DNA from: Pseudomonadota bacterium
Lineage (GTDB): Bacteria > Pseudomonadota > Alphaproteobacteria > Rhizobiales > Beijerinckiaceae
Direction of reading: 5' to 3'
DNA length: 7,531 nucleotides
NCBI GenBank assembly: GCA_023452965.1
Contig: JAEXUU010000820.1
Coordinates: 1-7,531 of the forward strand
In this document: piece after piece, positions 2,664 to 7,531 of the stretch
Layout of the letters: each line of letters begins with the position of its first letter
Position numbering within the stretch: the first letter of the stretch is position 1
Notes under the pieces: model-generated
What the model was told of the DNA's origin: nothing
What the model saw: only the letters and a program-made list of their open reading frames with translations
Database searches by the model: none
Made by a program: the position numbers and the translations under genes

Positions 2664-3221
2664 ATGCTGCGCGCCATTGTCTTGACTGCCGCCGCTCTCG
2701 CTTTCGCTACGCCTGCGTCGGCCTATTCCAACCCGATCAGCCGCGGGCTAGCGGACTTCCTCAACATCTTCAGCGAGCAGCCGGTGCCGCGCCAGGTCGT
2801 CCCCTGGAACGGCAAGCAGGCGCCCGGCACGGTCGTGGTCTCGACCAGCCAGAGCCGGCTCTACTACGTGCTCGGCCGGGGGCAAGCGATCCGCTATGGG
2901 GTCGGTGTCGGCCGGCAGGGTTTCAGCTGGTCGGGCACGAAGACCGTTTCGCGCAAGCGCGAATGGCCGGACTGGCGTCCGCCCGCGGCGATGCTGAAGC
3001 GCCGGCCCGACCTGCCGCGCTACATGGCGGGCGGGATGGAGAACCCGCTTGGCGCGCGGGCGATCTATCTGGGATCGAGCCTCTACCGGATCCACGGCTC
3101 GAACGAGCCTGACACGATCGGAGCTGCGGTCTCCTCGGGCTGCATCCGGATGACCAATCGCGACGTGATGGACCTCTATGATCGCGTCAGGCCTGGGACC
3201 AAGGTCATCGTACAGCGCTAG
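2664..3221 (+). CDS. L,D-transpeptidase, YkuD domain, exported (185 aa)
   Basis: The protein has an N-terminal signal peptide (LRAIVLTAAALAFATPASA, cleavage expected after ASA) and then one YkuD (ErfK/YbiS) catalytic domain to the end. The catalytic signature is present: HGSN with H144, and SSGCIRM with the nucleophile C160 and R162. Enzymes of this family act in the periplasm on peptidoglycan, either making 3-3 cross-links between diaminopimelate residues or attaching proteins to the wall. Which of these applies is not visible. There is no LysM or other binding domain. Start choice: AGGG at 2654-2657 is 6 nt before the ATG at 2664 but directly touches the in-frame ATG at 2658, so I prefer 2664; starting at 2658 adds only Met-Ile. 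The stop TAG lies in the palindromic repeat at 3218-3271. A candidate promoter is at 2606-2635. Confidence 0.92.
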   Translation: MLRAIVLTAAALAFATPASAYSNPISRGLADFLNIFSEQPVPRQVVPWNGKQAPGTVVVSTSQSRLYYVLGRGQAIRYGVGVGRQGFSWSGTKTVSRKREWPDWRPPAAMLKRRPDLPRYMAGGMENPLGARAIYLGSSLYRIHGSNEPDTIGAAVSSGCIRMTNRDVMDLYDRVRPGTKVIVQR

Positions 3222-3271
3222 AGCATCTTCGAGCGAAGCGGGTACCGGCTCGCGTGAAGAAAATGCTCTAG
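3218..3271. repeat. Imperfect palindromic intergenic repeat, carrying the stop codons of both flanking genes
   Basis: The outer arms CTAGAGCAT (3218-3226) and ATGCTCTAG (3263-3271) pair perfectly. Inside, CGAGC (3230-3234) pairs with GCTCG (3248-3252), and GGTACC (3241-3246) lies near the centre. The overall form, AGAGCAT..TTCGAGCGAAG..GGTACCGG..GTGAAGAAAATGCTCT, matches a class of short dispersed palindromes that I know from Hyphomicrobiales genomes, recalled and not searched. It fills the whole space between two convergent genes and could act as a bidirectional transcript end, though there is no T-run. It supplies TAG to the L,D-transpeptidase (3219-3221) and TAG on the minus strand to the DUF3422 gene (3268-3270). 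Confidence 0.75.
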
Positions 3272-6140: not shown

Positions 6141-6166
6141 GGAACCTTCAGGGGGCCTGCGACGTT
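6141..6166 (+). promoter_or_regulatory. EcfG-type general stress promoter GGAAC-N17-CGTT
   Basis: GGAAC at 6141-6145 and CGTT at 6163-6166 are separated by exactly 17 bp. This fits the consensus GGAAC-N16/17-CGTT of the alphaproteobacterial general stress sigma factor EcfG, whose activity is set by PhyR and NepR. Transcription would begin near 6172-6175 and give a leader of about 33 nt to the 24-codon gene at 6207. The other GGAAC motifs checked in the window (1803, 2807, 6298) have no CGTT at the right distance, which makes this pairing stand out. Stress control is inferred from the motif. Confidence 0.7.
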
Positions 6167-6206
6167 GTCCCGCCATCATCACCGATGGCAATCAAGGGGG
6201 CAAATC

Positions 6207-6281
6207 ATGCGCTCGATCGCATTGTGGCTGCTTGGGATTCCGATCCCGATCATCATCCTGATCTGGCTCTTCGTCCGCTGA
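6207..6281 (+). CDS. 24-residue single-pass membrane peptide
   Basis: The ORF starts MRSIALWLLG and continues IPIPIIILIWLFVR before TGA. After the first Arg almost every residue is hydrophobic, so it should form one short transmembrane helix with a probable kink at the two prolines and a terminal Arg at the far end. The Shine-Dalgarno AAGGGGG (6194-6200) is 6 nt before the ATG, better than for most genes here. An EcfG-type promoter lies upstream (6141-6166) and an intrinsic terminator downstream (6320-6351), so promoter, leader, ORF and terminator make a complete unit of about 180 nt. The function is unknown; stress-induced peptides of this kind often bind and modulate membrane proteins. Translation is inferred from the signals around it. 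Confidence 0.65.
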   Translation: MRSIALWLLGIPIPIIILIWLFVR

Positions 6282-6308
6282 CCTTGGTCCGCTGACAGGA
6301 ACTGACAG
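6273..6308 (+). repeat. Short overlapping direct repeats after the micropeptide ORF
   Basis: GTCCGCTGAC occurs at 6273-6282 and again at 6287-6296 (14-bp period); the first copy covers the stop codon of the 24-residue ORF. The second copy runs into a further pair, CTGACAG at 6292-6298 and 6302-6308 (10-bp period). On the other strand this last pair reads CTGTCAG-TTC-CTGTCAG, close to the GTGTCAG-TAG-GTGTCAG repeat at 1761-1777. It may be a chance duplication or an operator. Confidence 0.5.
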
Positions 6309-6319
6309 AATAAATTGCT

Positions 6320-6351
6320 ATGGCCGGGCGCGTCCCGGCCATATTCTTTTG
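6320..6351 (+). terminator. Rho-independent terminator after the micropeptide gene
   Basis: A 10-bp perfect stem (6320-6329 with 6335-6344, core ATGGCCGGG / CCCGGCCAT) closes a 5-nt loop, CGCGT, and is followed by TTCTTTT at 6345-6351. This is the only hairpin in the window with a proper T-rich tail. It lies 38 bp after the stop of the 24-codon ORF and insulates the ABC transporter genes downstream. Confidence 0.85.
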
Positions 6352-6431
6352 CAGGAAGAGTCGCGCAGGCTGGGCGGAGCTGCGTGACATCGCCTCCACC
6401 GATTGTCCTGTCTCTCCAACAGCGTTCCGCC

Positions 6432-7531
<1,100 letters not shown>

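Follow-up and report, generated by a model that had tools for sequence, protein, structure and literature searches.

Several single-helix small proteins act as partners of larger membrane proteins in bacteria (e.g., CydX, KdpF, AcrZ, and MgtS), and the kind of molecule described here, a single-helix small membrane protein, is a known one. Like these, the 24-aa micropeptide of the present locus has fewer than 50 residues and one hydrophobic stretch and is, in its family, often encoded beside a large membrane protein; unlike them, the family has no NCBIfam or Pfam match, its candidate partner (hereafter PLP) is uncharacterised, and the two are often encoded apart. A possible relative is SEP6 of Sinorhizobium meliloti, a protein of less than 30 aa with a predicted transmembrane helix that is reported to be conserved in Hyphomicrobiales and whose tagged form was recovered in the P100 fraction (PMC10117765); as far as the available portion of that paper describes it, the likeness to our micropeptide is one of description only, and identity is a lead. 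The second system to compare with is the sigma-EcfG (PhyR-NepR-EcfG) regulon, for which the accessible parts of two studies give the motifs GGAAC-N16-CGTT (sigma-EcfG1 of Rhizobium etli, PMC3892343) and GGAAC-N17-20-GTT (EcfG of Sphingomonas melonis, PMC6599016), alike in sequence and spacing to the element found here. The portions of text consulted from the sigma-EcfG literature, regulon tables aside, name no peptide of such a kind, and the part of the literature retrieved with peptide strings of the family held no relevant match (GIPIPI led to work on human CD97). What is unusual in comparison with the described systems is the class-wide stress-type control, the presence of two unrelated kinds of micropeptide next to members of a single membrane protein family, and the occurrence of the micropeptide as a lone cassette.

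The cassette and its genomic setting

The window, i.e., the whole stretch of 7,531 nt that was analysed, is Bosea-like: the protein encoded by the gene upstream of the cassette is 98% identical to its counterpart in Bosea sp. WAO, and the locus of that strain shares 94–95% identity with the window DNA over three long stretches. This upstream gene, which has no Pfam match, flanks the cassette on one side and the gene of an ABC-transporter ATPase (PF00005) on the other. The cassette consists of the following parts:

6141..6166, + strand: EcfG-type promoter element GGAAC-N17-CGTT (GGAAC 6141–6145, CGTT 6163–6166), found once per Bosea-type sequence in 15/15
6194..6200, + strand: Shine-Dalgarno-like AAGGGGG, followed after 6 nt by the ATG at 6207; taken from the sequence and from the Shine-Dalgarno matches in the family
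6207..6281, + strand: ORF of the 24-aa predicted single-helix micropeptide MRSIALWLLGIPIPIIILIWLFVR; open frame in the Bosea-type loci and pS/pN
6319..6352, + strand: hairpin (10 pairs, 6319–6343) with a T-rich tail, a probable intrinsic terminator; taken from the scan, one per Bosea-type sequence in 15/15

All four parts had been proposed in an original prediction made from the letters of the window. The promoter element is present as described there, and the 24-codon frame does encode a single hydrophobic stretch (best 19-residue mean Kyte-Doolittle value of MRSIALWLLGIPIPIIILIWLFVR, 2.6). The Shine-Dalgarno sequence, said to be strong, lies 6 nt ahead of the ATG but is a 4-nt exact match in the scan, which makes it fair. 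The hairpin at 6319–6343, said to be the best intrinsic terminator of the window, is the sole terminator-like place in the scan (counted once per strand), but the number of such places does not exceed chance (2 in the window vs. 3.2 ± 1.8 in shuffles). A structured RNA was rejected for the cassette, which has no Rfam match at the gathering score and an ordinary fold (z-score – 1.57; 16 of 200 shuffles were equally stable).

Three further observations concern the rest of the window. The Walker A motif of the ABC-transporter ATPase (6537–6575) has a Cys in place of a Gly, while 14/14 related loci read LLGPNGAGKTTLI; a mutation in this strain or an error in sequencing could account for it. A perfect inverted repeat with 16-nt arms and a loop of 9 nt (ATGCCGCATTGCCTCG / CGAGGCAATGCGGCAT) is located at 8–48, and a short one (GAGCATCTTC...GAAGAAAATGCTC) at 3221–3270, after the L,D-transpeptidase gene; elements similar to the latter are presumably dispersed in related genomes.

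Conservation in Bosea-type loci

Fourteen loci found via a related upstream gene form, together with the window, a Bosea-type set of 15 sequences (179 kb). In each of the 15, GGAAC-N16/17-CGTT and the GGCCGGG..CCCGGCC hairpin occur just once, both at the cassette, and the order of GGAAC-N17-CGTT, ORF, and hairpin is constant in 15/15, which bears out the earlier claim that chance would not easily place the parts in this way. The cassette-to-upstream-gene distance is 87–130 nt in 13 loci and the window and 928 nt in L013, so the cassette behaves as one unit.

The micropeptide ORF is open in 14/14 loci, and frameshifts or stops within conserved flanks, sought as refuting evidence, were limited to a stop one codon earlier in L010. 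The peptide reads MRSI(A/I)LWL(L/V)G(I/V)PIP(I/V)I... in 13/14 loci, and that of L012, a MAG, is MRSMALWLLDVPIPIIVLLWFFMR, with G10D. Among 14 distinct Bosea coding sequences, pS was 0.351 and pN 0.088 in the forward reading frame, i.e., the synonymous-biased substitution of a coding frame under purifying selection that the original prediction had named as a check, while the other forward frames gave pS/pN of 0.155/0.149 and 0.066/0.183, and the reverse frames 0.201/0.147, 0.306/0.117, and 0.054/0.184. Reverse frame 1 (0.306/0.117) is the nearest rival, and the amino-acid conservation across the family (described below) favours the forward frame. Judged by these comparisons, it is nearly certain that a real coding gene lies at 6207–6281. 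A chance ORF amid chance signals, for which the terminator-like count that does not rise above the shuffles might be cited, can practically be dismissed, since conservation extends to 15/15 Bosea-type sequences as well as to the 192 loci treated next; open frames in 14 loci, the pS/pN values, and the conservation of motif and hairpin in 15/15 all contradict it.

A family of micropeptides in Alphaproteobacteria and Pseudomonas

A search for homologues, proposed together with the original prediction, showed how far the family reaches: a model built from seven Bosea-type peptides matched 172 of the 397 genomes sampled from the order (E ≤ 0.1), and wider models matched 59/385 genomes of the class and 69/398 of the phylum at E ≤ 0.01. 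Relatives recognised by their sequence are present in many Alphaproteobacteria and in Pseudomonas, usually with one copy per genome among the matches listed in the order search, and by the same comparison the cassette peptide belongs to a large family, in which some members have an EcfG-type element and others lack it. The better-scoring matches, a part of all matches, supplied 210 loci with one best match per fetched locus, and leaving out those that shared the same 190-nt context resulted in 192 distinct loci, in which relatives are not independent.

The start codon is ATG in 186/192 loci and a Shine-Dalgarno match of at least 4 nt precedes it in 182/192. Peptide lengths are 22–29 aa, bar one truncated row, a K or R stands within the first five residues of 183/192 members, and the mean Kyte-Doolittle value is > 1.2 in 192/192. 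The consensus is roughly M(G)RxILLWLxGxPIPIIILLxLF, with G-x-P kept in 190/192 and W..G.P in 177/192 members, and the codon-position entropy is 0.97/0.32/1.50 (185 aligned members).

The suspicion that such an ORF could be unannotated proved justified, as the micropeptide is near-absent from gene catalogues: a 40-residue query containing the peptide retrieved three proteins from 5.8 billion, all overlong calls of 41–52 aa, in a search limited to relatives that have exact words in common with the Bosea peptide. Pfam returned no match at E ≤ 0.1 and NCBIfam none above the cut-off (sole match PsbM, 10.2 bits vs. a cut-off of 35.05). CydX, KdpF, or another named small-subunit family was accordingly rejected by sequence, no curated family model in Pfam or NCBIfam matching. 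A tblastn search with one family peptide against plasmids gave no match, perhaps due to the low-complexity filter.

Being very hydrophobic, 22–29 aa long, and behind a stress-type promoter, the peptide could be imagined as toxin-like, depolarising the membrane and slowing growth under stress. Such a role is unlikely for a family in which specific residues are kept class-wide (G-x-P and W..G.P, as above), one copy per genome is usual among the matches listed, and the gene is often paired with that of PLP.

Promoter element and linkage to the general stress response

Conservation of the upstream GGAAC/CGTT pair, seen in 15/15 Bosea-type sequences, extends to 93/192 family loci, where GGAAC-N16/17-CGTT stands ≤ 130 nt ahead of the start, mostly at 49–72 nt; the count rises to 106/192 if the base before GTT is allowed to be C, G, or T. 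About half of the 192 loci are without GGAAC-N16/17-CGTT, and in terms of sequence the EcfG-type motif belongs to part of the family. A set of 299 permuted motifs averaged 0.41 loci, compared to 93 for the true motif, and the two top permuted motifs (23 and 19 loci) correspond to the true motif displaced by a single base. Controls within the same loci gave 1/191 at – 250 to – 131, 8 on the other strand, and 7 downstream.

For co-occurrence within the class we used 37 of the 59 positive genomes (E ≤ 5e−7, G001 left out) and 43 of the 326 negative ones. NepR was found at E ≤ 1e−3 in 23/37 micropeptide-positive vs. 5/43 negative genomes, over the family cut-off in 21/37 vs. 4/43, and, in genomes of at least 3 Mb, in 20/28 vs. 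5/18. Some family members also sit at the ecfG/nepR/phyR locus, a likeness to the sigma-EcfG regulon: in L170 (827–2789) a divergent EcfG-like sigma gene and phyR enclose a member (start 1468) that has its own motif (1396). In six genomes the distance between a member and a NepR match is 0.4–4.2 kb, one of these matches being below the cut-off. Judging by motif and gene neighbourhood, the cassette is likely to be under EcfG control. The original prediction of a stress-induced membrane micropeptide of unknown target holds in so far as the EcfG-type element exceeds chance, but a candidate target, PLP, has since come forward.

PLP, a candidate partner protein

Clustering of the ORFs that neighbour the micropeptide brought out PLP, a multi-helix membrane protein of ~300 aa. 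It has 5549 relatives at E ≤ 0.001 among the candidates scored, and within the best 120 of the 5549 listed, a few UniRef relatives are called "PhnA-like protein" and most are hypothetical. Seven PLP proteins had no Pfam or NCBIfam match at E ≤ 0.01, and the predicted structure is weak (pLDDT 64.9; best PDB match E 0.76). A "PhnA-like protein" is also listed for phiLM21-like prophages of S. meliloti in the available part of PMC12429752. The IMG/VR contigs L082 and L083 encode members of the micropeptide family, with no PLP in the stretch examined.

The PLP model matched within 1.5 kb in 62/192 loci; in 58 of them PLP shares the strand of the micropeptide, which it follows in 41 and precedes in 17. 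With a stricter motif, 50 pairs were obtained: 35 micropeptide-first, whose gap is exactly 9 nt in 18/35 (range – 10 to 30 nt), and 15 PLP-first, with gaps of 12 to 51 nt. Pairs in both gene orders, with gaps mostly of 9–15 nt, occur in Hyphomicrobiales and Pseudomonas-like genomes, and for one PLP-first example the relatives carrying a name are Pseudomonas, among the matches listed. In the PLP-first loci the motif was found neither ahead of the micropeptide (0/17) nor, in its strict form, near the PLP start. Plasmid records with the pair belong to Ensifer adhaerens, Mesorhizobium sp. AR02, and Agrobacterium larrymoorei; where the record is annotated (two cases), PLP is given as hypothetical and the micropeptide is missing from the gene table, which is known to be incomplete.

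The two gene orders also bear on the suggestion of a leader peptide, or chiefly of a small regulatory RNA with an incidental ORF, which could draw on the ORF just ahead of PLP in 41 loci and on a short transcript with a hairpin end. We consider it highly improbable, given that the micropeptide follows PLP in 17 loci, that a conserved hairpin parts it from the next gene in 15/15 Bosea-type sequences, that selection acts on codons (pS 0.351, pN 0.088), and that the fold z-score is – 1.57 with no Rfam match at the gathering score. The leader peptide or attenuator in particular was set aside because in Bosea the hairpin precedes the next gene and because other loci have the two genes in reverse order.

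Seen from the side of PLP, 38/72 loci have an adjoining, Shine-Dalgarno-preceded hydrophobic ORF of 20–30 aa, compared to 1/253 other large ORFs; the 72 include fragments and derive for the most part from genomes selected because they carry the micropeptide, and from the control candidate peptides with family motifs were dropped to avoid counting the micropeptides themselves. Beside the PLP of L217, L218, and L222 a peptide of the second kind described below is visible by eye, yet these loci are outside the filter used for the 38/72 count.

In the class sample PLP was present in 25/37 micropeptide-positive vs. 2/43 negative genomes, and in 20/28 vs. 1/18 of those with at least 3 Mb, with G418 counted as negative, though a G-x-P-type peptide adjoins its PLP. 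In Hyphomicrobiales a PLP match was found in 22/40 micropeptide genomes vs. 1/20 negatives; 39 of the 40 have a lone micropeptide, and without G302, which has an adjoining PLP, the counts are 21/39 vs. 1/20. As genomes and loci are related, Fisher tests on these counts are not independent.

No PLP lies nearby in 130/192 loci, although in 182/192 the sequence extends ≥ 1.1 kb to either side. Lone cassettes are more frequent than pairs in the sample, and a PLP match is absent from 12/37 positive class genomes and 18/40 Hyphomicrobiales genomes. Such numbers would suit a stress-induced single-helix regulator of another membrane complex (a transporter, a protease, or a respiratory enzyme), with PLP being just a frequent neighbour and regulon mate. 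We find this less likely in view of the tight pairing with PLP in both gene orders in Hyphomicrobiales as well as in Pseudomonas-like genomes, and of the co-occurrence of the two across genomes. In several lone-micropeptide genomes the PLP located elsewhere has its own micropeptide. In nine genomes with a lone, motif-bearing micropeptide and a PLP that has no micropeptide of its own (L261–L269) the DNA examined around PLP contains no EcfG-type motif; joint control therefore fails there, which slightly lowers the odds of a partnership. On the pattern of pairing and co-occurrence, we put the chances of a micropeptide/PLP partnership at better than even.

PLP in Bosea and a second kind of micropeptide

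PLP occurs elsewhere in 8/9 Bosea-type genomes, at 17 loci in total. At five loci, one in each of five of these genomes, a close PLP has no micropeptide beside it, and GGAAC..GTT stands ~95–101 nt before the MTDY start; in 4/5 the element ends in AGTT, a weaker match. Of the remaining Bosea-type genomes, three have only PLP with another micropeptide and one has no PLP, at least three of the four being MAGs. A reading of Bosea as having split partners is plausible.

At twelve Bosea PLP loci a different 24-aa hydrophobic peptide stands in front, itself behind GGAAC..GTT. The consensus of this second kind (type-B) is M(D/N)xIIYLVGLVVVVxAILSFxGLR, and in L223 both kinds are arranged back to back, with a motif for each. 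This unrelated 24-aa micropeptide was observed directly before PLP in L216–L227, L239–L241, L243–L246, L250, L275, L277–L281, and L284.

In most Bosea type-B operons the motif-to-PLP distance is 148–156 nt. In Table 1 of PMC6599016, transcript #1930 of Sphingomonas melonis Fr1 is EcfG-dependent, is assigned to a hypothetical protein, and has its motif 154 nt ahead of the annotated start. By analogy, the leader of transcript #1930 may hold an unannotated micropeptide.

Discussion

The reading that we favour, with modest confidence, is that 6141–6352 constitutes a stand-alone general-stress gene, transcribed by EcfG, whose membrane peptide is most likely a partner of PLP. RNA polymerase with the stress sigma factor EcfG would start a ~180-nt transcript near 6172 and transcription would end at the hairpin at 6319–6343. 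We infer that the 24-aa peptide is translated and inserts one helix into the inner membrane, with its N-terminus probably inside according to the positive-inside rule. There it would contact PLP, most likely as its small partner, and stabilise, assemble, or gate it under stress. In many relatives the two are encoded as a tight gene pair, and in Bosea the micropeptide has a separate cassette, with the closest PLP encoded elsewhere behind its own GGAAC..GTT.

A broader and more tentative proposal, which we regard as possible but somewhat less than probable, is that the PLP proteins of Alphaproteobacteria and Pseudomonas make up a stress membrane complex of a new class, with a single-helix micropeptide as a subunit. 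This subunit would be of two unrelated kinds (the G-x-P-I-P kind and type-B), and the alphaproteobacterial genes would be controlled largely by the general stress sigma factor. The micropeptide would also be separable as a cassette of its own, as in Bosea.

Because stress regulons are compiled from annotated genes, a conserved target of 24 codons is invisible to them. The family occurs in roughly two fifths of the sampled genomes of the order (172/397). With this breadth, a promoter that predicts when the peptide is made, and a candidate partner, it becomes possible to test the peptide together with a large protein family whose function is unknown. Gene calling that leaves out the shortest ORFs misses genes that are kept across a whole class.
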